Positions 8,734 to 52,946 of a stretch of 64,000 nt of DNA are shown here, piece after piece. This DNA is from Sipunculus nudus (lineage: Eukaryota; Annelida; Sipuncula; Golfingiida; Sipunculidae), in the NCBI GenBank assembly GCA_026874595.1, contig CM049313.1:77492659-77556658 (forward strand), given 5' to 3'. Numbering within the stretch: position 1 is the first letter of the stretch; each line of letters opens with the position of its first letter. A program made the position numbers and the translations under genes. Below the pieces are notes generated by a model. The model ran no database searches, was not told where the DNA came from, and saw only the letters and a list, made by a program, of their open reading frames with translations.

Positions 8734-9297
8734 GCCCCCTCACACGAAGCGTTTCACTGTGCAAGCGACTGAACGTGACAGAGGCAACGTTTTCCCAAAT
8801 GTTATCCCACGAAATCTTAAGAATTTTTTTTCAGGGCGTGAAATTACCGCTGTACAAGCGGAATACAGATGTATTCTTTTGACCCCCCCAGTGATTTGCC
8901 GATTTATCCTGTATTTTGTGTGCGATTTCTTAAGTTAACTATGGGAAATTGAACGCTTTGACACGTTTTCTTCGATTTACCTGTGATTGTATTAAATATT
9001 TTGAACACTGTCACAGCCCCCTCACACGAAGCGTTTCACTGTGCAAGCGACTGAACGCGACAGAGGCAACGTTTTCCCAAATGTTATCCCACGAAATCTT
9101 AAGAATTTTTTTTCAGGGCGTGAAATTACCGCTGCACAAGCGGAGTACAGATGTATTCTTATGACCCGCCCAGTGATTTGCCGATTTATCCTGTATTTCG
9201 TGTGCGATTTCTTAAGTTAACTATGGGAAATTGTACGCTTTGACACGTTTTCTTCGATTTACCTGTGATTGTATTAAATATTTTGAACACTGTCAAA
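8734..9297. repeat. 282-bp direct repeat dimer (unit A)
   Basis: Two head-to-tail copies start at 8734 and 9016, both with GCCCCCTCACACGAAGCG and ending near AACACTGTCA. They differ by a handful of bases. The same dimer is at 19211-19774 in unit B. It looks like a short satellite-type repeat captured before the large duplication. Confidence 0.85.
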
Positions 9298-10155
9298 ATA
9301 TTTCAATCCATCACGTCTCTATACACGCTATCACGCGGGGACTCCATTCTTCGATGTTTGTGTGCGAATGTATAGGTTGTCATGCGATTTAGTCAGACGT
9401 TTTTCAGACTAACAGAGATTTCATGAACCCCATAGGAAGTCAAGTTAGAAGATTCTGGGTCCCAAGGTTACGATTTGTGCCCTGTTCACAGATGACTGTT
9501 TCTGGGAAGGTCTAAAAAATTGAGAAACAAAATGTGTAAAAATTAGAAACAAGCAATTTCGTTGAATCAATGTCTTCCGCTTTGGCTCTTTTTGTCTTTC
9601 ATGCTTGATAAGCATATGACATGTTAGGAAAATCTTGAGGGCAGATGAAATCTTAAAACAGATCCATTATGACATGTGGAGACATCTGCAGGTGAACATA
9701 AAAACTAAAACATATTGAGAAATAGGACCAAAATGCATTATGACATGTGGAAAAATCTGCAGGCAAACATAAGACTAAAATGCATTAAGATATTGGACCA
9801 AATTTGATAATTTTGTTTTTGTTATTGGTCAGATAGACACTCCAAAACCAATCCCAACCAAGGTATGCACGATAGCAACCACTGACCCAAATTTTAATGA
9901 AATGGGAAAAAATTTAGGAGAGTTGTTGCACGGAAACAAAAAAAAAAAACCTTAAGGGCGGACGGAAAGACAGACAAACCCAAATCAATGGCCCCCGCAT
10001 CCACAGAAAGGGAGAAATAATACAGGTGGTGCCATCAGTCTGATGAAACACTCCGTGATCAATATGCATGCAATGAATCATAGTGATCAATGGATTAGTT
10101 ATTTAGATACTGCAGATTTCGTATCATATTTTCAATTATTCTTGGGGGTACATAC

Positions 10156-10699
10156 TGGTACCCCGCTCTATTATGGCACCGCTGCTCTAGGCCAATCATA
10201 GAGACGGGCGTACAACGCCATCTTCAGGACTCCCGGCAGACTGGTTCCAACTCAAGTATAATTTATATATGATAAAAATAAGCATTTCGTTTGCTCAGAG
10301 AAGTTGTTAAAAGTTGGCTGTACATTTCGTGTGACATTTATGATTAGATTAATAGGTATTGATAATAAACCAATGCCACGTACAGTGGAATATCAAGTAT
10401 TCAGTATATCGTATGATTCGTATCATCTATACATCCATCAGTCAATTTTTGTGCAAAAACTCATTTTTCAATATTTGGAAACATTAAATAACTGAAGAAA
10501 GTAATTTTATAAGTAATCTTCACGGATAATCAGCCAGGATCGCGAGAACTTCCATGACAATCGGTGTGAGCATACAGACTGGAGTTGGAACCAGTCTACA
10601 GGTAGGTCAGGAGTTGCAACTGGGAGTACTTAAGATGGCGTTGTACGCCTGTCTCTATGCTTGGCTTGAGGGCCTTAATAGAGCAGGGTACCAGTCTAG
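10156..10699. mobile_element. 544-bp non-autonomous transposon with long TIRs (unit A)
   Basis: The ends are imperfect inverted repeats of about 110 bp: 10156-10260 pairs with 10570-10699, for example CATAGAGACGGGCGTACAAC against GTTGTACGCCTGTCTCTATG. The element is flanked on both sides by GTACATAC (10148-10155 and 10700-10707). It splits a dispersed repeat whose uninterrupted form occurs elsewhere in the window (GGGGG...AGCCCCATAGCTCAGAG). The 8-bp duplication suggests a hAT-type MITE. The interior has no transposase. The same insertion is at 20634-21177 in unit B, so it predates the duplication. Confidence 0.8.
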
Positions 10700-10859
10700 G
10701 TACATACGAGCCCCTTAGCTCAGAGGATATGGGTAACAGAGACCTAATTTCAGGTTTCCAAGGAGATCTTTCATGGGCCTTCCTGTATGTCAAGTAAGAA
10801 GATTCCAGGTCCAGCGGTTATGATTTGTGCCTGGTTAACTACTGCTTCTTGAAATGAAA

Positions 10860-12900
10860 AAAAATGCGTAAAAATTGGAAAATATACAGGTGGCGCCACC
10901 AGTCTGCAGGAACTGATGTAACACTCCGTGATCAATATGCATGCAAATAATCATGGTAAACAATGCATTAGTTATTTAGCTACTGCAGCTTTTGTATCAA
11001 ATTTTTAATTGTTCTGGGGGGGGGGGGGGGGGTACTAAAGAGCATAATAGCTCGGAGGATATGGGCAACAGGGACCTAATTTTAGGTTTCCAAGGAGATT
11101 TTCAGGGACCACATAGGATGTCAAGTAAGATGATTCTAGGTCCAATTGTTACGATTTGTGCCCTGTTAACGGATGACCTCAATATTTGAAGGTCTCAAAA
11201 CTAGAGAAAAAAATGCTTCAACATTTGAACCAAGGCCTACAGGCCTAATGCGATTCTGTGAAAGTTTAGGAGTATAAATGGAGGTTTATTTTTATATTTA
11301 ATATTGATCCTCTTATGTCCTGCATATCTTCCTTAGTCATTATGATTTCAGCAAAATGGACGGTAAGTTTCGGACTTGGACATTTAAAAACTAGGATATA
11401 TCAGTCAAGATTTTCGGATGTTCTATTTGGAAGGATTATTGGGACAGATGAACGGACAATTTGACAGCATGGTTTCAAAGAAGAACATTTTTTAATGTTT
11501 TTTAACTTCTTCCCTGTAAAATCTAAGAAAATGCAGTTAGCCAAAAAATAAGCAAAATCCGATAGAGTTTTTTAGATGACTAATTTTTTGCATAAAAGTT
11601 CGTGATGCTAACTCTTGCCGTTTTCAAGATAGTATGGGTTAACGTACAGACGACGGACGCCGGACGACGCCAACCATCGCGTAAGCTCACAGGTTCCCTA
11701 AAAATTGGTGATGCTAGCTCCTGCCGTTTTTGAGATAGATATGGTTAACGTACAGACGACGCAACGACGGACGACGCCGCACCATCGCATAAGCATACAG
11801 GTTCGCTAAAAATACAGGTGGTGCTACCAATCTGCATGAACTGATGAAAGACTCTTATATGCATGCAAAGAATCATGGTGATCAACACATTAATTGTTCA
11901 GTCACTGGAGCTTTTGTGTTCAATTTTTAATTTTTCTGGGGTGTACTTCTGAGCCCATAAATCAGCTGATATAGGTAACAGAAACGTAATTTCAGGTTTC
12001 AAAGGAGATTTTTTCAAGGACTTCCCTCGATGTCAGGTAAGAAGTTACGCTAAATGGTTACGATTTGTGTCCTGCTAACGAAAAACCGCATTCTTGAAGG
12101 TCTCAAAATACAGAAAAAAATGCATGAAACCCGAAAATATACAGATAGCGCCACCAGTCTGCATGGATCGATGAAAGACTCAATGATCAATATGCATGCA
12201 GAGAATCATGGTGATCAACACATAAATTGTTCATATAGTGGAGCTTTTGTATAACATTTTTAATTATTCTGGTGGGTTCTTCTGTGCCCCAAAGCGAGGA
12301 GCATATCGATAACAAACTTAATCATAGAGTCCAAGGAGATTTTTCATGGACCTCCATGGACGTAAAGTAAGAAGATTCGAGGTCAAGTGATTATGATTTG
12401 TGCCCTTTTAACGGATGGACAGACAGACGGACAGACTACGGACCAAGAATAATCGCTACAGCTCATCTGACGGAAAGTCATCCGAGCTATAGCAATCACT
12501 TTATGTCCAAAGTAGCAAAAAGTGGTCTGAAACCCATAAAAAGATTGCTGTGGCTGAAGGGAAGGGGGGGGGGGGGGGGTGGTGGTGGTCCGGATCCTCT
12601 GATCTCCTCCCCTGATGTCACAGAGAACGTACACTATTTGCGCCCAAAACAAATGACACAAAGGCATTTTCTTTCACCCTTTTGCTAATTAATTAAGTGT
12701 CCAATAGAGGTGTTCTTTTTCATGTATGGAGGCGGGTTATTCTTGAACTCTCTTAAAATTGCCAGGTATTCATATGGACATGCACGTGGCTGCATGCCAA
12801 AAGGATGCAAACGTGCCAATATGGTTGTGTTCTCCTGCACACCGTATACACGCTCACCCAATGTCTAAAGCTTACATTATTGAACTAAATACGGAAAGTC
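10860..12900. repeat. Cluster of dispersed bivalve-type repeats (unit A)
   Basis: Degenerate direct copies of a ~200-bp module occur here. Its landmarks are GGTGGCGCCACC near the left, a T-rich stretch then CTGGGGGG, AGCTC.GAGGATATGGG, TTTCCAAGGAGATTTT, GATTTGTGCCCTGTTAACGG, then GACGGACGG-type tracts. Two segments near 11640-11815 carry GACGACGCC...CATCGC.TAAGC...CAGGTTCGCTAAAAA. G-runs lie at 11016-11032 and 12564-12579. Short ORFs here are incidental. The unit B equivalents are at about 21340-23380. Confidence 0.75.
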
Positions 12901-13028
12901 TACAAGCGACTACGTGTATCCGCAAATATCAGAGTAGGACGGGTGAAGTGAAGTATGGATTGAGTGGCAAGGGGAAGTTGGATGTGTTACATATTAGCAT
13001 TGATGTCTGCCACGTAAACATGATTGTA

Positions 13029-14257
13029 GGTGGCGCCACCTGTAATTTGAATGAGAAACTATTCAAGATGTATACACAAGCAAATTTCAGGTGGAAAAGT
13101 CAAACCACTGCCGAGATACGAGTGATTTAATCCCACAGCAGACAAACAAATGGACTCTGTGCAAAAATGGCTGCAGGTGGCGCCACCAGTTTCTTGTATG
13201 ATAGAGAGCTATGCGAGATCCAAACGCTTGCATCGCTTCAGGAATTACGTCAAACTAGTCCGGAAATATTAGCATGGATATCTGCAGCATGAACGTGAAT
13301 GTAGGTGGCGCCACGTGTCATAAAATCAAGAAAGCTATCCAGGATGTATATACATGCCAAACTTCAGGTGAATAAGTCGAACCACTGCTAAGATATGAGT
13401 GATTTTAACCAAGTTCCAATAAACTGATGTTTGCCTGTGGCGCCACCAGTTTTGTGTATGATAAAGAGCTATGTGAGATCTAAACACATGAAAATTTTCA
13501 GGAAGATACGTCAAACCAGTCCAGAGATATAAGCATTGATGTCGGCAGCATGAACGTGAATGTAGGTGGCGCCACCTGTCATAAAATCAAGTGAGCTAAC
13601 CAAATGCCAAATTTTAGGGAATAAGTCGAACCACTGCTGAGATATGAGTGATTTTAACTCAAGTCCAATGAACTGATGGACGCTGAGCAAAAATGGTTCC
13701 AGGTGGCGCCACCAGTTTTGTAAATGATACAGAACTACGTGGGATCTAAACACATGCAAATTTTCTGGAAGATAGGTCAAACCAGTCCGGAGATATAAGC
13801 ATTGATGTATGCAGCATGAACGTGAATGTAGGTGACGCCACCTTTTATAATATCAAGAAAAGCCATCCAGGATGTAAACTCATGCCGAACTTCAGGTTAA
13901 TTAGTCAAACCACTGCAGAGATATGAGTGATTTTAACCCAAGGCAGACGAACAGATGGTTTCTGTGCAAAAATGGTTGCAGGTGACGCCACCTTTTTGTG
14001 TATGTTTTAAAGCTACCCAAGGGCTACATTTGTTTTAAATATTTTTTTTTATTGGTCAAACGAGTTGGAAGATATTTAGGTAAATGTGTCAAAACAGACG
14101 CACAGATGGACACACTGAAGAGAAAAAAGGTCAGAGGTCAACTCCGAATGGTTAGGCACCAGTTCACATGTGACCCAATAATTGGTGTAACTTTCAGAAA
14201 AATCGGTCCAGTAGTCCCAAAAGAGTTCTCCGGAAACGAATTGTAGGTGGCGCCACC
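13029..14257. repeat. Array of GGTGGCGCCACC palindromes, ~131-bp half-units (unit A)
   Basis: Perfect or near-perfect GGTGGCGCCACC palindromes occur at 13029, 13176, 13304, 13436, 13565, 13702, 13831, 13981 and 14246. The spacing is 128-150 bp, with one double gap. Two alternating half-units follow them: one with GCATGAACGTGAATGTAG before and TGTCATAAAATCAAG after, the other with GTGCAAAAATGGTTGCAG before and AGTTTTGTGTATGATA after. The composite period is ~265 bp. The array is repeated in unit B (23510-24738), and related partial copies occur at 45490-45930. Confidence 0.85.
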
Positions 14258-14739
14258 AGTCTTGTATACGACAAAGCTTTACAATATGTTTAAATTTGCC
14301 CAATTTCAGGCCGATATATCAAATTCCTCTGGATATGTTCTTTTTGCCAGGGAGGATTATTGGGACAGATGAACGGACAATTTGGTAGCATGTTTTTTGA
14401 GAAGAACATTTTTTGTGTTTTTCAACTTCTTCCCTATAAAATCTAAGAAAATGCAGTCAGCCAAAAATAAGCAAAATCCGATAGAATTTCTTAGTTGACT
14501 ACTTTTTTGCATAAAATTGGTGTTGCTAGCTCCTGCCCTTTTGAGATAACTTTGATGCACAACGGAAGACAAAGACGCCACATCATTGCATAAGCTCAAA
14601 GATTCGCTAAAAATGCAAACCAAGTTTTTTCAAACAGTTGAAAGATATAGTTCCAATAGTTCTCCAGATATTGTATGGACAGCAGACAGAGCCAGGTCGG
14701 TTGCCATCGCGTCATGAGTTTTTCCAACTTTCGCTAACT

Positions 14740-18500: not shown

Positions 18501-19210
18501 TTTCCAATATAGTTATCACTAAATTCCCCTAGCTCTAAGGAATCCTTCCATATGATTTGATGGTTAAAGTATTCTAATTTACTGACTTATCTAAAGGAAA
18601 TTGAACAAAAGCCCATGCAGAGGCACAAATAGTCCCCAGCCCAATGCATAACTCAAATGTGTTTTTTATGTGACATGCTTTCCCTTGGCTGAAATAGGAT
18701 AATTAAGGACCCAATGGTGTCTTGTACAATGGATGCAATTAGACAAGAGAGCAGGCGTACAAAACGATTATCAGTGGCGCCACCTGTCTTATGTACACGA
18801 CAAGTCTATCAAATAATTCTTTTTCAATACAGTATTCACTGATTTCCCTTAGCTCCAAGGAATCCTTGCATATGATTTGAAGGCATAAGTGTTCTAATTT
18901 ACTTAATTATCTGAAAGAAAGTGAAAAAGGCCATTATGGAGCACAGAAAGTCGCTAAACAGGTGGCTCCATCCGCAGGTGATTATCATGTGCTGAGTTAG
19001 TGTGTAAAATTTGGAAACAAAAAACAAAAAAAACCATGCAGGGTCTTAGAGAAATGTGGTAAAAGAATGGGACGGGACGGAAGGCCGCCCGGCCGGCCGG
19101 TATGCTGGACGGACTGACGCGGATCTTTTTATTTAAGTAGTTCTCCTTCCTACGGCGGGGGGCTCATAAGAATATAATGGTAACGCGGTAACGGAAAAAG
19201 GACACTGAGA

Positions 19211-19774
19211 GCCCCCTCACACGAAGCGTTTCACTGTGCAAGCGACTGAACGCGACAGAGGCAACGTTTTCCCAAATGTTATCCCACGAAATCTTAAGAA
19301 TTTTTTTTCAGGGCGTGAAATTACCGCTGTACAAGCGGAATACAGATGTATTCTTTTGACCCCCCCAGTGATTTGCCGATTTATCCTGTATTTTGTATGC
19401 GATTTCTTAAGTTAACTATGGGAAATTGTACGCTTTGACACGTTTTCTTCGATTTACCTGTGATTGTATTAAATATTTTGAACACTGTCACAGCCCCCTC
19501 ACACGAAGCGTTTCACTGTGCAAGCGACTGAACGCGACAGAGGCAACGTTTTCCCAAATGTTATCCCACAAAATCTTAAGAATTTTTTTTCAGGGCGTGA
19601 AATTACCGCTGCACAAGCGGAGTACAGATGTATTCTTATGACCCGCCCAGTGATTTGCCGATTTATCCTGTATTTCGTGTGCGATTTCTTAAGTTAACTA
19701 TGGGAAATTGTACGCTTTGACACGTTTTCTTCGATTTACCTGTGATTGTATTAAATATTTTGAACACTGTCAAA
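19211..19774. repeat. 282-bp direct repeat dimer (unit B)
   Basis: Copies start at 19211 and 19493. It is the equivalent of 8734-9297. Confidence 0.85.
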
Positions 19775-20633
19775 ATATTTCAATCCATCACGTCTCTATA
19801 CACGCTATCACGCGGGGACTCCATTCTTCGATGTTTGTGTGCGAATGTATAGGTTGTCATGCGATTTAGTCAGACGTTTTTCAGACTAACAGAGATTTCA
19901 TGAACCCCATAGGAAGTCAAGTTAGAAGATTCTGGGTCCCAAGGTTACGATTTGTGCCCTGTTCACAGATGACTGTTTCTGGGAAGGTCTAAAAAATTGA
20001 GAAACAAAATGTGTAAAAATTAGAAACAAGCAATTTCGTTGAATCAATGTCCCCCGCTTTGGCTCTTTTTGTCTTTCATGCTTGATAAGCATATGACATG
20101 TTAGGAAAATCTTGAGGGCAGATGAAATCTTAAAACAGATCCATTATGACATGTGGAGACATCTGCAGGTGAACATAAAAACTAAAACATATTGAGAAAT
20201 AGGACCAAAATGCATTATGACATGTGGAAAAATCTGCAGGCAAACATAAGACGAAAATGCATTAAGATATTGGACCAAATTTGATAATTTTGTTTTTGTT
20301 ATTGGTCAGATAGACACTCCAAAACCAATCCCAACCAAGGTATGCACGATAGCAACCACTGACCCAAATTTTAATGAAATGGGAAAAAATTTAGGAGAGT
20401 TGTTGCACGGAAACAAAAAAAAAAAAACCTTAAGGGCGGACGGAAAGACAGACAAACCCAAATCAATGGCCCCCGCATCCACAGAAAGGGAGAAATAATA
20501 CAGGTGGTGCCATCAGTCTGATGAAACACTCCGTGATCAATATGCATGCAATGAATCATAGTGATCAATGGATTAGTTATTTAGATACTGCAGATTTCGT
20601 ATCATATTTTCAATTATTCTTGGGGGTACATAC

Positions 20634-21177
20634 TGGTACCCCGCTCTATTATGGCACCGCTGCTCTAGGCCAATCATAGAGACGGGCGTACAACGCCATC
20701 TTCAGGACTCCCGGCAGACTGGTTCCAACTCAAGTATGATTTATATATGATAAAAATAAGCATTTCGTTTGCTCAGAGAAGTTGTTAAAAGTTGGCTGTA
20801 CATTTCGTGTGACATTTATGATTAGATTAATAGGTATTGATAATAAACCAATGCCACGTACAGTGGAATATCAAGTATTCAGTATATCGTATGATTCGTA
20901 TCATATATACATCCATCAGTCAATTTTTGTGCAAAAACTCATTTTTCAATATTTGGAAACATTAAATAACTGAAGAAAGTAATTTTATAAGTAATCTTCA
21001 CGGATAATCAGCCAGGATCGCGAGAACTTCCATGACAATCGGTGTGAGCATACAGACTGGAGTTGGAACCAGTCTACAGGTAGGTCAGGAGTTGCAACTG
21101 GGAGTACTTAAGATGGCGTTGTACGCCTGTCTCTATGCTTGGCTTGAGGGCCTTAATAGAGCAGGGTACCAGTCTAG
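20634..21177. mobile_element. 544-bp TIR transposon (unit B copy)
   Basis: Same element and same GTACATAC flanks (20626-20633 and 21178-21185) as at 10156-10699. It was copied with the unit rather than inserted independently. Confidence 0.8.
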
Positions 21178-23509
21178 GTACATACGAGCCCCTTAGCTCA
21201 GAGGATATGGGTAACAGAGACCTAATTTCAGGTTTCCAAGGAGATCTTTCATGGGCCTTCCTGTATGTCAAGTAAGAAGATTCCAGGTCCAGCGGTTATG
21301 ATTTGTGCCTGGTTAACTACTGCTTCTTGAAATGAAAAAAAAATGCGTAAAAATTGGAAAATATACAGGTGGCGCCACCAGTCTGCAGGTACTGATGTAA
21401 CACTCCGTGATCAATATGCATGCAAATAATCATGGTAAACAATGCATTAGTTATTTAGCTACTGCAGCTTTTGTATCAAATTTTTAATTGTTCTGGGGGG
21501 GGGGGGGGGGGTACTAAAGAGCATAATAGCTCGGAGGATATGGGCAACAGGGACCTAATTTTAGGTTTCCAAGGAGATTTTCAGGGACCACATAGGATGT
21601 CAAGTAAGATGATTCTAGGTCCAATTGTTACGATTTGTGCCCTGTTAACGGATGACCTCCATATTTGAAGGTCTCAAAACTAGAGAAAAAAATGCTTCAA
21701 CATTTGAACCAAGGCCTACAGGCCTAATGCGATTCTGTGAAAGTTTAGGAGTATAAATGGAGGTTTATTTTTATATTTAATATTGATCCTCTTATGTCCT
21801 GCATATCTTCCTTAGTCATTATGATTTCAGCAAAATGGACGGTAAGTTTCGGACTTGGACATTTAAAAACTAGGATATATCAGTCAAGATTTTCGGATGT
21901 TCTATTTGGAAGGATTATTGGGACAGATGAACGGACAATTTGACAGCATGGTTTCAAAGAAGAACATTTTTTAATGTTTTTTAACTTCTTCCCTGTAAAA
22001 TCTAAGAAAATGCAGTTAGCCAAAAAATAAGCAAAATCCGATAGAGTTTTTTAGATGACTAATTTTTTGCATATAAGTTCGTGATGCTAACTCTTGCCGT
22101 TTTCAAGATAGTATGGGTTAACGTACAGACGACGGACGACGCCAACCATCGCGTAAGCTCACAGGTTCCCTAAAAATTGGTGATGCTAGCTCCTGCCGTT
22201 TTTGAGATAGATATGGTTAACGTACAGACGACGCAACGACGGACGACGCCGCACCATCGCATAAGCATACAGGTTCGCTAAAAATACAGGTGGTGCTACC
22301 AATCTGCATGAACTGATGAAAGACTCTTATATGCATGCAAAGAATCATGGTGATCAACACATTAATTGTTCAGTCACTGGAGCTTTTGTATTCAATTTTT
22401 AATTTTTCTGGGGTGTACTTCTGAGCCCATAAATCAGCTGATATAGGTAACAGAAACGTAATTTCAGGTTTCAAAGGAGATTTTTTCAAGGACTTCCCTC
22501 GATGTCAGGTAAGAAGTTACGCTAAATGGTTACGATTTGTGTCCTGCTAACGAAAAACCGCATTCTTGAAGGTCTCAAAATACAGAAAAAAATGCATGAA
22601 ACCCGAAAATATACAGATAGCGCCACCAGTCTGCATGGATCGATGAAAGACTCAATGATCAATATGCATGCAGAGAATCATGGTGATCAACACATTAATT
22701 GTTCATATAGTGGAGCTTTTGTATAACATTTTTAATTATTCTGGTGGGTTCTTCTGTGCCCCAAAGCGAGGAGCATATCGATAACAAACTTAATCATAGA
22801 GTCCAAGGAGATTTTTCATGGACCTCCATGGACGTAAAGTAAGAAGATTCGAGGTCAAGTGATTATGATTTGTGCCCTTTTAACGGATGGACAGACAGAC
22901 GGACAGACTACGGACCAAGAATAATCGCTACAGCTCATCTGACGGAAAGTCATCCGAGCTATAGCAATCACTTTATGTCCAAAGTAGCAAAAAGTGGTCT
23001 GAAACCCATAAAAAAGATTGCTGTGGCTGAAGGGAAGGGGGGGGGGGGGGGGGGGGGGGGTGGTGGTGGTCCGGATCCTCTGATCTCCTCCCCTGATGTC
23101 ACAGAGAACGTACACTATTTGCGCCCAAAACAAATGACACAAAGGCATTTTCTTTCACCCTTTTGCTAATTAATTAAGTGTCCAATAGAGGTGTTCTTTT
23201 TCATGTATGGAGGCGGGTTATTCTTGAACTCTCTTAAAATTGCCAGGTATTCATATGGACATGCACGTGGCTGCATGCCAAAAGGATGCAAACGTGCCAA
23301 TATGGTTGTGTTCTCCTGCACACCGTATACACGCTCACCCAATGTCTAAAGCTTACATTATTGAACTAAATACGGAAAGTCTACAAGCGACTACGTGTAT
23401 CCGCAAATATCAGAGTAGGACGGGTGAAGTGAAGTATGGATTGAGTGGCAAGGGGAAGTTGGATGTGTTACATATTAGCATTGATGTCTGCCACGTAAAC
23501 ATGATTGTA

Positions 23510-24738
23510 GGTGGCGCCACCTGTAATTTGAATGAGAAACTATTCAAGATGTATACACAAGCAAATTTCAGGTGGAAAAGTCAAACCACTGCCGAGATAC
23601 GAGTGATTTAATCCCACAGCAGACAAACAAATGGACTCTGTGCAAAAATGGCTGCAGGTGGCGCCACCAGTTTCTTGTATGATAGAGAGCTATGCGAGAT
23701 CCAAACGCTTGCATCGCTTCAGGAATTACGTCAAACTAGTCCGGAAATATTAGCATGGATATCTGCAGCATGAACGTGAATGTAGGTGGCGCCACGTGTC
23801 ATAAAATCAAGAAAGCTATCCAGGATGTATATACATGCCAAACTTCAGGTGAATAAGTCGAACCACTGCTAAGATATGAGTGATTTTAACCAAGTTCCAA
23901 TAAACTGATGTTTGCATGTGGCGCCACCAGTTTTGTGTATGATAAAGAGCTATGTGAGATCTAAACACATGAAAATTTTCAGGAAGATACGTCAAACCAG
24001 TCCAGAGATATAAGCATTGATGTCGGCAGCATGAACGTGAATGTAGGTGGCGCCACCTGTCATAAAATCAAGTGAGCTAACCAAATGCCAAATTTTAGGG
24101 AATAAGTCGAACCACTGCTGAGATAGGAGTGATTTTAACTCAAGTCCAATGAACTGATGGACGCTGAGCAAAAATGGTTCCAGGTGGCGCCACCAGTTTT
24201 GTAAATGATACAGAACTACGTGGGATCTAAACACATGCAAATTTTCTGGAAGATAGGTCAAACCAGTCCGGAGATATAAGCATTGATGTATGCAGCATGA
24301 ACGTGAATGTAGGTGACGCCACCTTTTATAATATCAAGAAAAGCCATCCAGGATGTAAACTCATGCCGAACTTCAGGTTAATTAGTCAAACCACTGCAGA
24401 GATATGAGTGATTTTAACCCAAGGCAGACGAACAGATGGTTTCTGTGCAAAAATGGTTGCAGGTGACGCCACCTTTTTGTGTATGTTTTAAAGCTACCCA
24501 AGGGCTACATTTGTTTTAAATATTTTTTTTATTGGTCAAACGAGTTGGAAGATATTTAGGTAAATGTGTCAAAACAGACGCACAGATGGACACACTGAAG
24601 AGAGAAAAGGTCAGAGGTCAACTCCGAATGGTTAGGCACCAGTTCACATGTGACCCAATAATTGGTGTAACTTTCAGAAAAATCGGTCCAGTAGTCCCAA
24701 AAGAGTTCTCCGGAAACGAATTGTAGGTGGCGCCACCA
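23510..24738. repeat. GGTGGCGCCACC palindrome array (unit B)
   Basis: Equivalent of 13029-14257 with the same spacing and only scattered base changes. Confidence 0.85.
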
Positions 24739-25191
24739 GTCTTGTATACGACAAAGCTTTACAATATGTTTAAATTTGCCCAATTTCAGGCCGATATATC
24801 AAATTCCTCTGGATATGTTCTTTTTGCCAGGGAGGATTATTGGGACAGATGAACGGACAATTTGGTAGCATGTTTTTTGAGAAGAACATTTTTTGTGTTT
24901 TTCAACTTCTTCCCTATAAAATCTAAGAAAATGCAGTTAGCCAAAAATAAGCAAAATCCGATAGAATTTCTTAGTTGACTACTTTTTTGCAAAAAATTGG
25001 TGTTGCTAGCTCCTGCCCTTTTGAGATAACTTTGATGCACAACGGAAGACAAAGACGCCACATCATTGCATAAGCTCAAAGATTCGCTAAAAATGCAAAC
25101 CAAGTTTTTTCAAACAGTTGAAAGATATAGTTCCAATAGTTCTCCAGATATTGTATGGACAGCAGACAGAGCCAGGTCGGTTGCCATCGCG

Positions 25192-28433: not shown

Positions 28434-28636
28434 ATCATAATAATAAAATTCAACACAATTTTTGTTCATTTACATACAAAGTTTGTTCAACATTTTTCCC
28501 CTATTTTACCCTTATATCATAATGTAAAGCTAGCATTGCTAGTCTCTGGAATGTTAAAGCCACTAAGGACAATGCTCACATAAGTGCTCATTTGCTAGAT
28601 GCTATCAGTGCCACATAAGGTGGCAATATCACAGAG

Positions 28637-29095
28637 TTACAGATGGGTGACAGGTAAGGCTCGTAGAGGGAAGAGGCTGCTTGTGTTTGGTGTTCCTGAT
28701 GAGATAGGCAGAACCAGGTGAGTATCACACATGAGCTGAGGCAAAATGTTGCAGGAGTCCTCTGTATTCATATCTATATGCTTTTCTTGACCTTCTTCTG
28801 AAACTGTACGAGAGCGTGAAGTTTGATGATAATGAGTTGTGTTTCTATGTACCCTTGGCAACATGGTCATACATTTTGTGGTTGTTATGGTATCACAGTC
28901 TTTCCAGCTCTGTTTGCAAGAGTCTGATTTGTCCACCACGGCACAGTTGTTGTTGACCTGAGGAACACTTGTTCCACTCATATTTAGTGAAACAAAGTCA
29001 CCCACAGCATGTCCTTGAGAACAATCAATGACCTTGACAATCTGATTTTTCACTTGCCAATCTCTGTAGATTTTGAAGTGGTAGCGCATCGCCAC
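28637..29095 (-). CDS. MARCH2/3-like E3 ligase, last coding exon (C-terminal tail)
   Basis: Acceptor ...GGACAG|GTGGCG places the exon start at 29095 in phase 0, matching the phase-0 donor at 29512. It encodes 152 residues plus stop. The first stretch, VAMRYHFKIYRDWQVKNQ, matches the post-TM2 segment of vertebrate MARCH2/3 (FRYH...Y.EWR.TNQ). The rest is a Ser/Thr-rich cytosolic tail, longer than in vertebrates. The last residues, VTHL, form a class I PDZ-ligand pattern (T-x-L), as vertebrate MARCH2/3 end in T-x-V. The exon assignment is strong; PDZ binding is inference. Confidence 0.9.
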   Translation of the reverse strand: MAMRYHFKIYRDWQVKNQIVKVIDCSQGHAVGDFVSLNMSGTSVPQVNNNCAVVDKSDSCKQSWKDCDTITTTKCMTMLPRVHRNTTHYHQTSRSRTVSEEGQEKHIDMNTEDSCNILPQLMCDTHLVLPISSGTPNTSSLFPLRALPVTHL

Positions 29096-29511
29096 CTGTC
29101 CAGAAAAAATTCAAGAACATATCTTTGATATTACAATTTTTTTTAAATTCAAAGAATATATCTGGACTATTAGGTGTATTAAAATTTATTTTATTTCTCA
29201 AATTCATTCAATGAAAGCTAAATACTATGCAGGCCGTACAAGATTTTCAAGATATGGAGAGTACCATAGATCTGCCAGTGCTTGCTTGACCTCTGACATA
29301 CTGAATATAATCTGACAGAATCTGGTTCCGTAATGGCATTCATCATTGTTTTTGTACCCACAAAACCAGGGACAGGAGGGACTACAAAGGCTGTTGATTA
29401 AATTGATAGAGCTTGCACATGTCAAACCTTTTCGATAAATATATATCAAGCTGAGATAACTGGAAAAGGAAGTTAAATTTTTTAGAAATAATGCTAGAGA
29501 GTTAAACTTAC

Positions 29512-29724
29512 CGAGCACCAGACTAGATGGATACAGACAAGAAATGCTGCCAAACTCATGAGACCTATCACTTCCCACTCTGACTCCTTGTGGTGCGTGT
29601 AGCTCATGGCCCCCGATATACACAGCCACGCACTCACTACAGCCAGAGGGGTCAGCACCAGAAAACAAGCACAGTCTCCTATCAGGTTCCTCTTGTCACC
29701 AAGCCGGGATGGATTTTTCACCCA
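29512..29724 (-). CDS. MARCH2/3-like E3 ligase, exon with two transmembrane helices
   Basis: Acceptor TATGTGCAG|TGGGTG and donor TGCTCG|GTAAGT bound exactly 71 codons, phase 0 at both ends. The peptide begins WVKNPSRLGDKRNLIGD, matching EWL.(D/N)PGP...KRTL..D of MARCH2/3. It contains two hydrophobic helices, about CFLVLTPLAVVSAWLC and VIGLMSLAAFLVCIHLVW, with the conserved TPLA.(I/V)S.WLC block. In this family the two helices anchor the ligase in endosomal or plasma membranes, with RING-CH and tail on the cytosolic side. The loop between the helices carries HHKESEWE. The intron to the next exon is 416 bp. Confidence 0.92.
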
Positions 29725-30420
29725 CTGCACATAAAGATAAGAAGAATTTTGTGTTAACTTAACCCAACACAGAATAAAGTGTTTGCTTAAATCAGCTGGG
29801 CTTTCGATGGGAAGAAAATTTGAAGAGGCCGGGACGCTCAGGCAAAAATTTTTGGAAGTCCCATCTGAGTTAAGAGTGTCCCAGTGGGAGATGATATGTA
29901 TTTTATGTAATTATCATACCATTATATGATTAGAAATCATGTCTAAATGTAAGCCTCTGTTATCAGCACGGTGTTAAAAGCACTGACAGGTTCCATGCAG
30001 GCAGCCGGTAATGGTTATTGACTGCTACAAAAGCGAGAAATTTGCGTCCGCAGAACCTAGCATCCGTAAAAGATTTCAAGCATCGGAGACCCTTACCTCC
30101 TCGTTCCTAAAAGCCCTGCCTAAATGTATATGTTTAAGTACACATCAAGGGGAACCCTCCTTACAGGCACCTCTCTACATCAGCCACTTAAAAGAGGGTC
30201 AATGAGTTGTGGACTTGGGTGGTTGTAAACAATTCTACAGTGGGAAGCCGCAAATGTTTGGTCTGGTTAGTATATAAAATAGGAGGTTCTACTGAATATT
30301 TGATCAAGGGCCTATTGAAGCCTTCACCTGATAACAAATACAAAATCATCAGGTTACTTATGCCATGCTGACATTATTATTGTTATATTTATAATATTTT
30401 GCTTGTTATTATCATTCACC
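29725..30420. other. Intron sequence left of the minisatellite
   Basis: Part of the 1339-bp MARCH intron (29725-31063). No repeat family or exon was recognised; a 64-codon ORF on the plus strand at 30011-30205 has no support. Confidence 0.6.
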
Positions 30421-31110
30421 TGCAAATGATGCTCTCTGTAATGTGCTCATCTCTTGGAAAGATTTTATCCTCCTCTCAATAGAGTGAACCATCTTTGTAA
30501 GGTTCTGGCATCCTCTGAGGAAAGGTTTTTACCTCCTCTCTGTGGTTAACTCACCTGTAGTAAAGGTTTTAGTCTCCTCTCTGTGGAAAACTCACCCCTA
30601 GGAAAGGTCTGTACATCCTCTCTGTGGAAAACTCACCCCTAGGAAAGGCTTAGTCTCCTGTCAATAGGGTTACCATTCTGTGAGGGGTTTTAGACTCCTC
30701 TGAGTAATGTAGTAGATATCACCTATAGGAAAGGTTTTTACCTCCTCTTGGGGGTATATACTCAACCGAAGGGAAGGCTTGGCCTCCTACCAGTAGTAAA
30801 CTCACCTCTAGGAGAGGCTTTGGCCTCCTGTCAACAGGGTATACCATTCTTTGAGAGGTTTTGGCCTCCTCTCAGTGGTGTAGTAGTAACCACCTCTAGG
30901 AAAGGCTCGAGCCTCCTGTCAACAGGGTATACCATTCTGTGTGAGGTTTTAGCTTCCTCTGAGTAATGTAGTTGTAATAACCTCTCGGAATGTTTTTACC
31001 TCCTCTCGGTTGCATATACTCAATTGTAGGAAAGCTTCGGCATTCTAACAGTAGTATACTCACCTCTAGGAAAGGCTTCGGCCTCCTCTCTGTGGTGTAC
31101 TCATAGCCAC
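30421..31110. repeat. Minisatellite derived from the RING exon end and its splice donor
   Basis: About 14 degenerate head-to-tail copies of a 39-45-bp unit. Read on the minus strand, a unit looks like GGAGGCCGAAGCCTTTCC followed by TAGAGGTGAG. The rightmost copy is the last 39 nt of the RING-CH exon plus the functional donor at 31064/31063. Units at about 30804, 30640, 30590 and 30550 still carry intact GTGAGT donors in the same orientation; others are decayed. The exon copy encodes the family-conserved EYTTERRPKPFLE, so the intron copies must have come from the exon, not the reverse. Confidence 0.85.
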
Positions 31111-31274
31111 ATATCTCACACTTGTTGGAGCTGGAGGAGCCAAGCCATTTCTCCACACAGGTCTGGTGGACCGAGCTCATAGAACCAGCACACTGGCAGG
31201 GACTAATCAAGGATTCCACACTCTCACCTTCATGACAGATCCGACACACACTGCTGTCTGTACTCCCTGTACCA
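31064..31274 (-). CDS. MARCH2/3-like E3 ligase, RING-CH exon
   Basis: Acceptor TACTTTGTAG|TGG and donor CCTAGAG|GTGAGT bound 211 nt. The first base completes an AGT codon with the two bases left by the upstream exon at 44155. The exon holds a complete C4HC3 RING-CH finger: C71 and C74 (CRIC), C87 and C89 (CQC), H97 and C100 (HQTC), C113 and C116 (CEIC), counted from the internal Met in the upstream exon. The W at 104 (KWL) between ligand pairs is typical of E2-binding RING-CH. By family knowledge it recruits an E2 and ubiquitinates membrane cargo. Most similar by eye to vertebrate MARCH2 and MARCH3 (CRICHEG, LLSPC.C.G). Confidence 0.95.
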
Positions 31275-31860
31275 CTACAAAGTATATACCAGGGTATATA
31301 AAATCAACAAGCTTGTAAGTCAGACGGCCTTTTAGTTAGTTTAAGGACTTTCATCAACTTAGAAATTCTCCAGCCTTTTATACTAGTGTGGTTTATCTGT
31401 ATACTTCTGGTTTGTGTCATAATAACTTAGTGCCAGATTACCCTAGCAGGATAATCAAATACTAAATATAAGAAAGCAAGAAAAATGCTACTGGTACATG
31501 TGCACTTTTTGGACTACATCTAAGATACAGAAGCCTCTCATGACCAATTATTTGTAAAACTATATATATTTCAACTATGTGAAAGTAATATGTGTTTAGA
31601 ATTCCCACTGGGAATATATGAAAACCTGTAAAATATAAAATAAGGAAGAAAGTGGAGATGAGCTGTTGTATAAAAATATAAATATTTATTTATTAACTGA
31701 AAAAAAATACTGTAAAAAAATAGAAATGTACATCTTCAAATGAGCATTAATTCAATCTAAGGAGTATTTATTGTACTCTGTAATATATAACTGAAACCAT
31801 TTAATCATCCAATATGGGAAAAAAGGTTATGGACCTAAAACTTATACTAAAGGATATATT
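31275..31860. other. Unique intron sequence next to the RING exon
   Basis: AT-rich start of the 12.9-kb MARCH intron (31275-44154). No exon or repeat was recognised. Confidence 0.55.
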
Positions 31861-33119
31861 TGATGAACAAACAAGTGACCCATGGGTCATGACGCTCAGC
31901 TGAATGACATGTTGACAATATGTCCTTGCACAGGCAACTAATTAAGATAATGTAGGTGGCATCATTGTTCATGCATCTTAGCTTATGTTCATCAAGACCC
32001 ATAAGCACAACAAATTTGATGACAATCCAACCAGCCTTTCATGAGGAATCTGGCAATTTTTGTGTATTTTGCTTTATTTCTGGGGTGCTCAATCATACCC
32101 CAAAACTCTGAGAATATAGTTCACAGTGACCTAATTTCAGGTTTCTGGGAAGAACTTTTGAGGAACTCTCAGGATGTCGAGTATGAAGTTTCTGGGCTAA
32201 ATGGTTATGATTTGTGCCCTACTTTGGTATCAAATTTTCAATTATTCTGAGGGGCAGTTATAAGCCCCATAGCTCAGAAAATATGGGTAACAGAGACCTA
32301 ATTTCAGGTTTCCAAGGAGACTTTTCATGGACCTTCCTGGATTTAAAGTAAGAAGATTCCAGGTCCAATGGTTATGATTTGTGCCCTACTTTGGTAGCAA
32401 ATTTTTAATTATGCTGGCGGTGTTTATAAGCCCCATAGCTCAGAGAATATGGGTAACAGAGACCTAATTTCAAGTTTCCAAGGATATTTTTCACAGCCTG
32501 GATGTTAAGTTAAAAGATTCTAGGACCAATGGTTACATAAGTGCCCTATTAACAGACGACTGCATCTGTGAAGGTCTCAAAAATAAAGATAAAATGCGTT
32601 AAAATTTGAAAAAGACAAGATGGTGCCTTGAGTCTGCAGGAACTGATGAAACACTCCAAGGTGCATTTATGCATGCAAAGAATCATGCTGATCAATGCAC
32701 TAGTTGTTCAGATACTAGAGCTTTTGTATCAAAATTTTTGTTATTCTGGGGGGTACTTTCTGAGCTCTGACAATATGGATAACAGAGACCTAACTAATTC
32801 AAGGTTTCCGAGGAGACTTTTTATGGACCTCTCTGGATATAAAGTTAAAAGATTTCAGGTCCAGTGGTTACTATTTGTGCCCTGTTAATAGATGACCACA
32901 TCTTTAAAGGTCTCAAAAACAGAGAAAAAATATTGTAAGAAATTGAAAAAAATACAGGTGGCGCCACCCATCTGCAGAAACTGATGAAACACTCCATGAT
33001 CAATATCAATGCAAAGAATCACGGTGATCAATGCATTAGTTGTTCAGATACTTGAGCTTTTGTATCAAATTTTTCATTATTCTGGGTAGTACTTCAGAGC
33101 CCCATAGCTCGAAGAATAT
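31861..33119. repeat. Dispersed repeat modules in the MARCH intron
   Basis: Tandem-like degenerate copies of the module also seen in units A and B: AGCCCCATAGCTCAG, ATATGGGTAACAGAGACC, AATTTCAGGTTTCCAAGG, GATTTGTGCCCT, TTTGTATCAAATTTT. Copies start near 32056, 32250, 32425, 32740 and 33080. One GGTGGCGCCACC palindrome lies near 32957. The last copy is cut at 33119 by the transposon at 33120 and resumes at 43577. Confidence 0.75.
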
Positions 33120-33959
33120 CAGGGTTGGTTTCAGAATTTTAAGTTTAGGGGGGGAATCCCCTCCCTAATTTTTTTTTTTTTTGGGGGGGGGGGGGGGGGA
33201 ACTAAATTTTTGAGGGGGACCTGATTAGTAATGATAATACTGATGGTAACCCCATGACTGCGCTCAAGAATACATTCAAACATACAGATGGCATGACGCA
33301 CACAGCAGAAAATACAGAGACAAATAAAAAGGCATTATCAGTTAATTTACTGTTTACTGGTAAATTCAGTATTTCCTGTTTATTCCATGTAAAGTGTAAC
33401 TGTTAATGGCCTTTGGGGCATTTGTAGGGCATACTTTCATGTATATCAGCTTTACAAAGAAAATCTAAACTATATCAATATATGTAAATAATAAGATTGT
33501 AATAACTGGAAAGCCTCTTGGCAGAGCAGAGTTGATTTTTAACTGTCCTACTGATTTTGGTCAAAAGTAGAAATTGTATAGTTGTTGATAGTAATAACAA
33601 ATTAACTTTCACATGTATAGAATTTCAACACCATGGTACTTTGCATGCTCAGGAGAGGTGCAAGTATCATAGTGTTAGTATACATGTGAAAGTTAGCCAA
33701 TGGCCACTTTGCAATCCTGTAAAAAATGCTAAAATCATACAAAATGTATATATCACTAATAAAAAATCTTAGATCTGTAACATGGTCCTGTCATATAGTT
33801 ATTACTTGAATAATCTACCGTTCTTTTGATATTTCCAATGAATTATTGCACTACTGAAGTCATATTTCTCATCTTCCGGCCCTTCTAGAGCGATCATTAT
33901 TATGTATTCAAGGTCTGTTCTTGAATTCTGTTACGATTGATTGTTTTTATATGATTCTG

Positions 33960-36079: not shown

Positions 36080-38784
36080 AGAATACCACGTGAATGTACT
36101 TACTATGTATTGTGTCAATAAATCATTCAAACAAACCAATTTCTGCACGTAACAAAAGAATTGGGGATGGTCTGTGAGTGATGAGCTTTGATTAGTTTCC
36201 ACAAAACAGATGTTTTGTTTGTGGAATACCTCTCTCAGGATGACCTCTTTCAACAGAGTCCACTCCCTTAAACATTCAGTTTTCAGTACCTTAGGACTGC
36301 TAGAAATGCCCGACTGGTGCACTGTGAAGTTAGTGCACCAATTTCTTCCTCCCATTTTCTGACAATACACTCAAAGACCTTAAACCTAAGACTTCAAAGG
36401 CTGTGGCCACTGTTACAGTTTAACTTGGAAATCTCCTGTCAAGTTCGGCTTTCAAAGAATCAATAAAGTCCTTCTTTATGTCACTGATTTGTTTTTTGCT
36501 TCTTTGTAATTTTTCAATTTCTCTGCAAAAAAACTACATACATTTTCAAATATAACTTCAGATGTGCATGTAACATCACTAAGAGTCAAGTTAACAATGA
36601 AGTGGGTTTCTGGATCAAAATTTTGACCCATAAAATGTGTGTACATAACAAATTTTTTGTGACAGTAATGTCTGTACTCTCATCCATCAGCAGGGTGAAA
36701 AAGTAACTGTTCCTCATCCATTAAACAAGTCCTCTTGCATCTGCCATGGAACGCTGGAATTCCTCTGCTGTTTTTCTAGACTGGTAGGTTGCATGGTCTT
36801 AAACATTCAATACAGAAGTGTCACATCCCTGAAGTTTCATCAAGTTCATCAAAGATGTGTACTTGTTTGTAGTTATTTGTTCTTTAGCTAACCAGTAGGC
36901 ATTTCTCATAGCCTTACATACAGAAACATGTTTCTTCTCCATTACAGTGTTTGCCACAGCAAACTCATTCTTCAACAATAAAGCTTTCACAGCAGACTGA
37001 TGTTCACTACTGGCAGCATGTCAGCTCAGTGTTGAAGTCCTAAAGTTTGTACATCCATCAAAAGAAGTAAATGGGTTGATTTGTTTGCTTTTAAGACATA
37101 TATGGCACTATATTCCATCCTTAGCGCTTGTTCTCAGCCATGTATATTGCTGTAGCCAATAACTGAAATTTATGGTGCTTCTGCATTTTAGCTGGTTTAG
37201 TACCACTAGTGCTGTGTGTTTTTTCACCAACAATGGTAGGATTGGTGGCATTAGTGGCACCAGTATTGACAGGAGTGCTGGAACCAGTCGTGGCACAGGT
37301 TGTGGCAGTAATGGTGGCATCAGTAGTGGCAGGAGTTGTGGAACCAGTCGTGGCACCAGCAGTGACAGAAGCACTGGAACCAGTCGTGGCACAGGTTGTG
37401 GCAGTAATGGTGGCATCAGTAGTGGCAGGAGTTGTGGAACCAGTCGTGGCACCAGCAGTGACAGAAGCGCTGGAACCAGTTTTGGCACAGGTTGTGGCAG
37501 TAATGGTGGCATCAGTAGTGGCAGGAGTTGTGGAACCAGTCGTGGCACCAGCAGTGACAGAAGCGCTTGAACCAGTTGTGGCACAGGTTGTGGCAGTAAT
37601 GGTGGCATCAGTAGTGGCAGGAGTTGTGGAACCAGTCGTGGCACCAGCAGTGACAGAAGCGCTGGAACCAGTTTTGGCACAGGTTGTGGCAGTAATGGTG
37701 GCATCAGTAGTGGCATCAGTAGTGGCAGGAGTTGTGGAACCAGTCGTGGCACCAGCAGTGACTGAAGCGCTGGAACCAGTCGTGGCACAGGTTGTGGCAG
37801 TAATGGTGGCATCAGTAGTGGCAGGAGTTGTGGAACCAGTCGTGGCACCAGCAGTGACAGAAGCGCTGGAACCAGTCGTGGCACAGGTTGTGGCAGTAAA
37901 GGTGGCATCAGTAGTTGCAGGAGTTGTGGAACCAGTCGTGGCACCAGTAGTGACAGAAGCGCTGGAACCAGTTTTGGCACAGGTTGTGGCAGTAATGGTG
38001 GCATCAGTAGTGGCAGGAGTTGTGGAACCAGTCGTGGCACCAGCAGTGACAGAAGCGCTGGAACCAGTCGTGGCACAGGTTGTGGCAGTAATGGTGGCAT
38101 CAGTAGTGGCAGGAGTTGTGGAACCAGTCGTGGCACCAGCAGTGACAGAAGCGCTGGAACCAGTTTTGGCACAGGTTGTGGCAGTAATGGTGGCATCAGT
38201 AGTGGCAGGAGTTGTGGAACCAGTCGTGGCACCAGCAGTGACAGAAGCACTGGAACCAGTCGTGGCACAGGTTGTGGCAGTAATGGTGGCATCAGTAGTG
38301 GCAGGAGTTGTGGAACCAGTCGTGGCACCAGCAGTGACAGAAGCGCTGGAACCAGTCGTGGCACAGGTTGTGGCAGTAATGGTGGCATCAGTAGTGGCAG
38401 GAGTTGTGGAACCAGTCGTGGCACCAGCAGTGACAGAAGCGCTAGAACCAGTCGTGGCACAGGTTGTGGCAGTAATGGTGGCATCAGTGGTGGCAGGAGT
38501 TGTGGAACCAGTCGTGGCACCAGCAGTGACAGAAGCACTGGAACCAGTCGTGGCACAGGTTGTGGCAGTAATGGTGGCATCAGTAGTGGCAGGAGTTGTG
38601 GAACCAGTCGTGGCACCAGTAGTGACAGAAGCGCTGGAACCAGTCGTGGCACAGGTTGTGGCAGATACGATGGCACCATCAGTGGCAGGAGTTGTGGTAC
38701 TGTTGGTGGTATGAGTGGTCACGGTGGCAGAAGACTCAGTGGTAGCAGCTTCAGAGATACTTTGACCGGTTACATCATCATCAC
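36080..38784 (-). pseudogene. Decayed hAT/DUF4371-type transposase fused to a Thr-rich repeat
   Basis: From high to low coordinates on the minus strand there is an acceptor GATTTCAG|GTGATG at 38784, then a Thr-rich repeat region open to 37121 (only ~75 bp later lost to frame). After a frame change near 37165 it continues as YWLQQYTWLRTSAKDGI, stop, CHICLKSKQINPF, NFRTSTLS, stop, HAASSEHQSAVKAL (a C-x2-C...H-x5-H zinc finger). Next come AMRNAYWLAKEQITTNK, then YFFTLLMDESTDITVTKNL, NLTLSDVT, DSLKAELDRRFP and LREWTLLKEVILRE. These blocks are typical of ZNF862/DUF4371-like proteins of hAT origin. Several stops and frameshifts show it is inactive, and the 3' part probably ended where the LINE now lies. 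Confidence 0.8.
37234..38745 (-). repeat. 96-bp higher-order repeat (8 x 12 bp), about 15 copies, Thr-rich coding frame
   Basis: Fifteen blocks of 96 bp, each built from eight diverged 12-bp units of the GTNGTGGCANNN type on the plus strand. In the minus frame open from 38890 to 37121 each block gives 32 residues such as CATTGSSASVTAGATTGSTT followed by PATTDATITATT, a tetrapeptide rhythm TTxA. One block has an extra 12 bp near 37715. Three frames, including plus-strand 37209-38714, are free of stops because the short unit has none, so openness alone is not evidence of coding. Its continuity with the zinc finger makes the minus frame the ancestral coding one. Confidence 0.85.
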
Positions 38785-51428: not shown

Positions 51429-52946
51429 ATGACAAACTACCGACAGAGAATGGGTAATTTTAGATCTTATATTCATCAATATTGCATTTGGTGCGTTCTC
51501 TTGGCGAATTCCATGATTTGCTTGGCACAGGTTAGGGTAAAGGTCACAGTTAATACATCGCGGACCACATTTGTGACAAACAAACGCTTCCTGAGTCTTG
51601 GAATGGATTCCAACCTGGTGAGGAAACACTGGTTGACATTTAATTTCAAGTCGCACCGGGTAGCTACACTTGCTAAAGCTTTGGCACCGGCATATCTTCG
51701 CTTCTCGGGCACAGATGCAGATCGACTAGTCTTCCAATCATCGGAGGCAGAGAGACATACCAGGAATGGTCTGTTTCCAACCTCCAGGTTCAACATGACC
51801 ACAGCTGACTGGGACAAGCTGTATATGATCTCCGAAAGTGTTGGTTGGCGACTTGTGTTTGGATTTAACGCCCAGTTAAGGAATGGCTCCGGATGGAACC
51901 CTGGCAACGCGGAGTCTTTGCTGGAATATTCAGTCAAAAAGGGTTATACAAATAACTTAGACTTCGAACTTGGTAACGAACCGAGCGCTTACACCAAAAA
52001 GCCGAAATTCATTCCGGTGCCCGCTGAACAACTGGGAAAAGATTTCCATGCTCTACGTAATATACTCAGCGGACCCAAATACGGAAAATATTTTGGAAAA
52101 TCACTTCTGGTTGGACCTGATATTAATATTTTAAATTACAAATACCTTGAGAAATATTTAACCACGACAAGTGACGTAATCAATGCAGTGACTTTCCATC
52201 ATTATTACGGACCATTATTCACGGTAAAAGATTTCACAAGCATAGAGAAGTTGGATTCTTACAAAACGCGACTAGAGCCAATCCAACATGTTGTTAGGAA
52301 CAGTCCAAACCCAAATCTCTCGATGTGGAACGGGGAGTCCAGCTCAACCGGACACCCACCAGGGTCATATATAAGTATGAGTTACGTGGCCGGCTTTATG
52401 TTTCTGGATAAACTTGGATTGTCTGCACAGCTAGGAGTTGATGTCGTCATATGTAACACATTCTACGGTTTCTGGATCGCTCTTATAGACCAACAGCTCA
52501 TGCCTACCCCAAGGTACTGGATAGCGTTGCTGTTTAAACGACTCGTTGGGCAAAAGGTGCTACAGGTTGACAGTAATTTTGATTACAGAATGCCTAATTT
52601 GACAAAAGGTGGAGTGCGTATTTATGCTCACTGTGTATCGTCTTCGGCAGGATATCCAGAAGGTGCTGTTGTTCTTTATGGCATGAACTTACTACATGAT
52701 AACGTTACTTTGGATTTGGGCCGGGATCTTCATATGCATCAATTTCTTCTGACCTCAGATAAATGGGGCGGCATAACCTCAAACTTCCTGTTGCTGAATG
52801 GCAAGGTCGTCGTGATGGAACACGATCTGAAACTGCCGAATCTACCCCCACGTGACCTTGGCAAAAGAAACAAATTGAATCTTCCACCAAAATCACTTTT
52901 CTTTGTGGTACTACTTGATTATGACGTAAACGTGTGCCTTCAGTGA
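51429..52946 (+). CDS. Heparanase-like GH79 endo-beta-glucuronidase, single exon
   Basis: A 505-residue ORF with an in-frame TGA immediately before the first ATG. Met1 or Met8 both lead into a hydrophobic signal peptide (about 16-34, CIWCVLLANSMICLAQ). The (beta/alpha)8 fold of heparanases is recognisable: YLRFSGTDAD (89-98), VFGFNAQLR, FELGNEPSAY with acid/base Glu184, TFHHYYGP (255-262), and MWNGESSSTG with nucleophile Glu303. Then come GFMFLDKLGLSAQLGVDVV and a C-terminal beta domain. Both catalytic Glu are kept. Vertebrate heparanase is about 543 residues and loses an internal linker; here the linker region (about 100-125) is much shorter. The enzyme family cleaves heparan sulfate in matrix and lysosomes. 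The absence of introns is unusual for the vertebrate gene. Confidence 0.93.
   Translation: MTNYRQRMGNFRSYIHQYCIWCVLLANSMICLAQVRVKVTVNTSRTTFVTNKRFLSLGMDSNLVRKHWLTFNFKSHRVATLAKALAPAYLRFSGTDADRLVFQSSEAERHTRNGLFPTSRFNMTTADWDKLYMISESVGWRLVFGFNAQLRNGSGWNPGNAESLLEYSVKKGYTNNLDFELGNEPSAYTKKPKFIPVPAEQLGKDFHALRNILSGPKYGKYFGKSLLVGPDINILNYKYLEKYLTTTSDVINAVTFHHYYGPLFTVKDFTSIEKLDSYKTRLEPIQHVVRNSPNPNLSMWNGESSSTGHPPGSYISMSYVAGFMFLDKLGLSAQLGVDVVICNTFYGFWIALIDQQLMPTPRYWIALLFKRLVGQKVLQVDSNFDYRMPNLTKGGVRIYAHCVSSSAGYPEGAVVLYGMNLLHDNVTLDLGRDLHMHQFLLTSDKWGGITSNFLLLNGKVVVMEHDLKLPNLPPRDLGKRNKLNLPPKSLFFVVLLDYDVNVCLQ

Follow-up and report, generated by a model that had tools for sequence, protein, structure and literature searches.

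A Minisatellite of the Mirage Kind across a Splice Donor in a RINGv Gene of Sipunculus nudus, with Boundary Duplications at Other RINGv Loci

Introduction

Minisatellites that span exon–intron boundaries were named 'mirages' in lancelets. The accessible part of the report that describes them covers the globin genes BflGb6 and BflGb9 and cites Adh3 (PMC3087553), and the available part of a second report adds PGBD5 and TnC (PMC3902484). In these portions of the sources, unit lengths are 10–160 bp (PMC3087553; PMC3902484), the units carry AG/GT signals, length differences between haplotypes are noted, and results of reverse transcription polymerase chain reaction were taken by the authors as showing regular, undisturbed splicing (PMC3087553). 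Here, an array of this appearance is described in a 64,000-nt stretch of Sipunculus nudus DNA, hereafter the window (C8:77492659-77556658 of a 1.43-Gb, 153-contig assembly), where it fills much of the intron downstream of the RINGv exon of a MARCH gene. Positions are window coordinates unless a locus is named. Since lancelet mirages have been published, the array is a further case of a known phenomenon: a boundary-spanning repeat is rarely reported and is of an already described kind. The preliminary description of this DNA had called the arrangement uncommon, a description that may be right in broad terms; even so, mirages are on record in lancelets, and three more RINGv loci of the same genome carry boundary duplications.

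The locus differs from the lancelet cases in that a MARCH gene bears about 16 degenerate, layered intronic units. No mirage beyond lancelets was found in the literature surveyed by title, a survey with subscription papers largely outside it. Intron gain by tandem duplication (ATP2A1, potato RdRp, and fission yeast) is similar in that, in the accessible text, the duplicated segment carries AG/GT or crosses an intron–exon boundary (PMC4974935); here, in contrast, no new intron arises, and the intron appears to predate the array. For human internal tandem repeats in segmental duplications, the available part of the source states that minisatellites at exon–intron boundaries (~30-bp units, ~4 copies) may alter gene structure (PMC2812944). 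Those repeats lengthen exons or form introns, whereas use of the native donor keeps the reading frame in the present gene.

Host Gene and Architecture of the Array

The host gene lies on the minus strand. Its RING exon contains a RINGv domain (PF12906, E 6.8e-15 in a Pfam search), and the closest solved structure is the RING of 'cellular modulator of immune recognition' (PDB 2d8s, E 1.3e-14). The 3′ end of this exon, at 31064, reads ...CEICGYEYTTERRPKPFLE in phase 0 and is spliced to WVKNPSRLGDKR... at 29724 across an intron of 1,339 nt, and hydrophobic stretches are visible in the translation of exon 2. From the look of the sequence, we take the gene to be putatively MARCH2/3-like. No Rfam match at the gathering threshold was found in 28500-33500. 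The features at the junction are as follows:

31064..31261, minus strand: RING-CH (RINGv) exon, 66 codons, ending in phase 0 (Pfam, translation; 31261 is the start of the translated span, not a placed acceptor)
31063..31103, minus strand: putative founder unit u01, the final 40 exon bases plus intron base +1 (exon-unit search, hand segmentation)
31058..31063, minus strand: native 5′ splice site GAG/GTGAGT (8/9 U1 pairs, −10.3 kcal/mol; intron position common to paralogues)
30424..31062, minus strand: intronic array of 16 units (u02-u17), layered and head to tail (exon-unit search, self-comparison, hand segmentation)
29512..29724, minus strand: next exon WVKNPSRLGDKR..., with native acceptor CAG/TGG (translation, splice-site inspection)

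The 41-nt unit begins with TGAGTA, and the intron also resumes directly with TGAGTA after the exon unit. Since the unit consists of the last 40 exon bases and the first intron base, each unit junction re-creates the donor. Hand segmentation of 31062-30424 gave 16 intronic units, of which nine are 41 nt, one is 40 nt, three are 47 nt, and three are short (26, 31, and 32 nt). The preliminary description had spoken of about 14 degenerate intron copies of the last ~39 exon nucleotides plus the 5′ splice site; the array and its course from the exon end across the donor are borne out, while the count and the unit length are revised to the values given here. As in the lancelet mirages, the tandem units comprise an exon edge and adjoining intron with the splice signal, the real boundary is itself one unit, and several units retain AG/GT signals, including four intact GTGAGT copies.

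The sharing of sequence between the exon end and the intron units is real and far above chance; an alignment showing the contrary had been named in the preliminary description as a refutation. The final 60 nt of the exon aligned to the intron with a score of 45, as against a maximum of 27 among 500 mononucleotide shuffles, and the final 45 nt gave the same score against a maximum of 26 among 200 dinucleotide shuffles. With the 41-nt exon block alone as the query over 1.8 kb, 15 intronic matches were obtained at E ≤ 1, ten of them below 0.001. Re-estimated models over the same 1.8 kb gave 16 matches in the array; a weak match outside it, at 29685, appeared in round 2 and was gone in round 3. 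The segment from the exon end to unit 3 reappears 258 nt further on (81% over 102 nt) and units 2-5 look like units 8-11 by eye, which suggests that the initial duplications were followed by amplification in blocks of ~170 nt. When the whole array was searched against the 1.43-Gb assembly, with very common words skipped by the search, one place was found among the best candidates reported; a dispersed repeat is thus not supported.

Paralogues C2 and C6 of the same genome share with the host gene the codon at which this intron lies, its phase 0, and W as the opening residue of the following exon. The boundaries read KPFRK/gtaaat...cag/W in C2, KPFSQ/gtgtga...cag/W in C6, and KPFLE/gtgagt...cag/W in the host. 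After the donors of these two paralogues, no exon copy and no tandem repeat of this kind was found, and a comparison at the host acceptor (29724) gave no exon copy. The shared intron position and phase argue that the intron and the coding sequence are older than the array, so that the exon copy would be its founder, as had been proposed at the outset; this conclusion is supported by the comparison within one genome. An older intron and coding sequence in turn argue both against birth of the intron by duplication and against a satellite having entered the exon from the intron.

Decoy Donors and the Consequences of Their Use

Besides the native donor, GTGAGT is preserved unchanged in four intronic copies in the sense orientation, in agreement with the earlier count of at least four; the first intron bases of these copies are 30805, 30636, 30595, and 30554. 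Every GT of the array and of the sequence shortly past it was scored for pairing with U1 (5′ end, fixed register), which is a rough yardstick and not a splice-site model. The decoys and the nearest stop are listed below:

30896..30898, minus strand: first in-frame stop on read-through of the native donor (translation)
30800..30805, minus strand: decoy donor GAG/GTGAGT, nine bases identical to the native site (−10.3 kcal/mol)
30631..30636, minus strand: decoy donor GGG/GTGAGT (−9.9 kcal/mol)
30590..30595, minus strand: decoy donor GGG/GTGAGT (−9.9 kcal/mol)
30549..30554, minus strand: decoy donor CAG/GTGAGT, 9/9 U1 pairs, stronger than the native site by U1 pairing (−11.7 kcal/mol)

Among the other minus-strand GT sites in the window (n = 3,661), two reach the native score of −10.3 and none reaches −11.7.

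The preliminary description had suggested that use of the outer donors would add repeat-encoded residues between the RING finger and the first membrane helix. This does not hold. When the GT donors of the array region, from 31059 to 30419, were spliced in silico to 29724, a premature stop resulted from 30/30 sites, and a productive insertion through outer array donors is thereby ruled out. The unspliced frame shuts at 30898-30896, before any of the four GTGAGT decoys is reached. Since every one of the 30 GT sites leads to a stop, use of a decoy would not lengthen the protein; it would truncate it or render the transcript prone to nonsense-mediated decay. Across 15 intronic units, agreement with the founder is 27-80% in the six donor columns, with a mean of ~51%, compared with a mean of 64% over all 41 columns (gaps count as misses, and the figure for the last column varies with where gaps are put). 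In this column conservation, we see no sign that the decoys would be kept by selection.

Boundary Duplications at Other RINGv Loci

A RINGv search of the genome gave seven matches, including the window's own (L004). The loci with further boundary repeats are as follows; we presume from the look of their sequences that L006 is MARCH5-like, L009 MARCH6-like, and L003 MARCH1/8-like, the searches themselves indicating a RINGv domain.

L006 (C1:59698050-59701214), ~1175-1502: exon end plus TAG/GTCAGT, period 41, 8.1 copies, 90% match
L009 (C11:76232884-76235973), ~653-983 and 1590-1686: repeats of 42 nt and 47 nt on the acceptor side of two consecutive exons
L003 (C2:17215500-17218640), minus-strand positions 1287-1499: acceptor plus exon start, 114 nt × 1.9

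The L006 exon finishes with CNTEYLIVFPKLG and joins PFVYILDLADK; an immediate stop follows from 12/12 of the listed AG/GT or AA/GT decoys. At the second RING exon of L009, the acceptor and the first ~23 nt are repeated upstream at a spacing of 42 nt, with six matches in one analysis and 7.9 copies in another, and the preceding exon has a 47-nt × 2.1 duplication that includes TTTCAG and no more than about five exon bases. L003, which matches PDB 2d8s at E 3.3e-27, has an upstream acceptor copy that leaves the reading frame open for 38 codons.

At the seven loci, 21 splice boundaries, a part of those in these genes, were placed by eye or by hand. An exon copy in the adjoining 588-800 nt exceeded 200 shuffles at 4/21 boundaries (the window, L006, L003, and the second exon of L009). 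A fifth, at the first exon of L009, has only the splice site copied, so that four of the seven loci are affected. No boundary copy was found at the placed boundaries of L005/L002, L007, and L008 against 200 shuffles. A comparison of the five arrays revealed no common sequence beyond chance matches of 7-13 nt (E 0.07 or worse), which argues for independent births. The recurrence at RINGv loci is the surprise of the analysis; the arrangement itself was already known.

Comparison with Other Gene Families

Four family searches (RINGv, RRM, kinase, and helicase) gave 82 loci, of which 56 were used; the 26 left out lie on contigs other than C1-C17, and many look bacterial. On small contigs, C60-C90 and others, large intron-free helicase and COX1 frames are present; one helicase match recurs in ten contigs, and 10/11 matches of a COX1 search fall on small contigs. 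These contigs are presumably bacterial companions or assembly contamination.

With edges set at −60/+30 of the match, 5/112 tests exceeded their shuffles (L006, L009, L004, L037, and L014). A second test extended the edges to the end of the open frame, with a threshold of z 6 and 20 shuffles; its passes outside the RINGv set were L037 (helicase) and three long-frame loci, L019 and L027 for RRM and L063 for kinases, with L031 (z 5.4) and L034 (z 5.0) under the threshold. For open frames below 200 aa, the passing edges are 4/12 for RINGv, 0/28 for RRM, 0/4 for kinases, and 1/4 for helicases (L037); for longer frames they are 0/2, 2/18, 1/42, and 0/2, respectively. The passes in longer frames seem to reflect domains repeated within one gene, or else a repeat located past the frame. 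None of the passes outside the RINGv set is established as a splice-boundary copy: L037 lies beside a 280-nt tandem repeat and has stops inside the match, L014, L019, and L027 belong to one 344-aa open frame holding three RRM matches, and the array of L063 starts just past the end of the open frame. The contrast between 4/12 RINGv edges and 0/32 short-frame RRM and kinase edges has a probability of ~0.004 by hand, a post hoc value from sets that differ in kind, with the helicase row excluded and RRM and kinase splice sites not placed. The RINGv excess is a lead, not proof that RINGv genes are special.

Tandem arrays with periods of 15-120 nt make up 2.5% of 254,725 nt sampled. Periods of 38-43 nt occur in 7/65 arrays in 258,807 nt, too few to argue for a preference near 41 nt. 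In a kinase locus (L062, C11:47590841-47594476), a 40-nt repeat × 25 lies beyond the kinase open frame at 2643-3636, and its consensus unit contains TCAGGTGG.

Other Features of the Window

Window positions ~8701-14700 and 19178-25180 are 99.4% alike over 6,011 nt at an offset of ~10.48 kb, which has the look of a recent local duplication or an assembly duplicate. At 37254-38697, a 96-nt repeat × 14.9 (94% match) lies inside open frames of more than 500 codons in three frames and on both strands. A 505-aa open frame without introns spans 51429-52946; from its look alone, it presumably resembles heparanase.

Origin of the Array

The array is very probably a splice-junction minisatellite of the mirage kind, produced by tandem duplication across the donor of an old phase-0 intron and by layered amplification, with decoys that are mostly silent. 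The first duplication may have been a slippage or short-homology event between the TGAGTA of the donor and the one in the exon, which falls within the Y-E-Y codons 40 nt ahead of the exon's end, a pairing that would make each junction rebuild the donor. Unequal exchange would later have amplified blocks of several units, and the decoys would remain mostly unused. At three other RINGv loci, boundary duplications came about independently, at a donor and at acceptors.

The decoys could instead be used in part as poison splice sites, with stop-containing transcripts lowering the ligase level or giving a short RING protein without membrane helices, and with copy number as the means of tuning. The four GTGAGT decoys, one above the native site by U1 pairing, and the stops from all 30 GT sites fit such a role, whereas the donor columns are conserved less than the unit as a whole, and the lancelet globin and Adh3 copies are reported, in the accessible part of the source, as not disturbing splicing (PMC3087553). 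Poison splicing is accordingly considered unlikely. Far less probable is the Rogers model, in which a segment of the exon duplicated in tandem gave rise to the intron, the array being its origin. The unit junctions do carry AG/GT, as that model needs, and intron gain across duplicated segments is documented in the available text of PMC4974935; yet paralogues C2 and C6 agree with the host gene in the codon and phase of the intron, no exon copy turned up behind their donors, and none turned up at the host acceptor. With the intron present in homologues that lack the duplication, intron gain by this route was rejected. An invasion of the exon end by a pre-existing intronic satellite or mobile repeat is the hardest to credit. 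It could draw on the frequency of short-period arrays in the sampled sequence, but the exon segment codes for residues that recur in the paralogues (KPF ahead of the boundary), the genome search gave one place among its best candidates, and the arrays at the other loci are made of their own exon edges.

Several points weigh against the account by duplication across an old donor. The silence of the decoys is its weakest step and is deduced from the sequence. The TGAGTA match cannot be proved older than the array, because tandem copies would create such a match too, and the age and order of events would be read from one genome. L003 has a clear exon copy, yet its 35 nt spanning the splice site do not rise above shuffles; the first exon of L009 shows the opposite, with the spanning stretch above shuffles and the exon copy not.

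A wider proposal is that cross-junction duplication is frequent in this lineage, having hit four of the seven RINGv loci at donors as well as acceptors, with chance resemblance of exon to splice signal as its seed, and leaving a stock of decoys that mostly make stops and are sometimes in frame (L003). We offer it tentatively, as possible but rather doubtful. Each array is a natural experiment on the choice of the spliceosome among near-identical donors, and the 41-nt unit that rebuilds the donor at each junction is a concrete model for splice-site multiplication. If the recurrence at RINGv loci holds genome-wide, S. nudus would offer a large-scale test of whether alternative splicing and intron gain draw on tandem duplication, past the few published lancelet genes.
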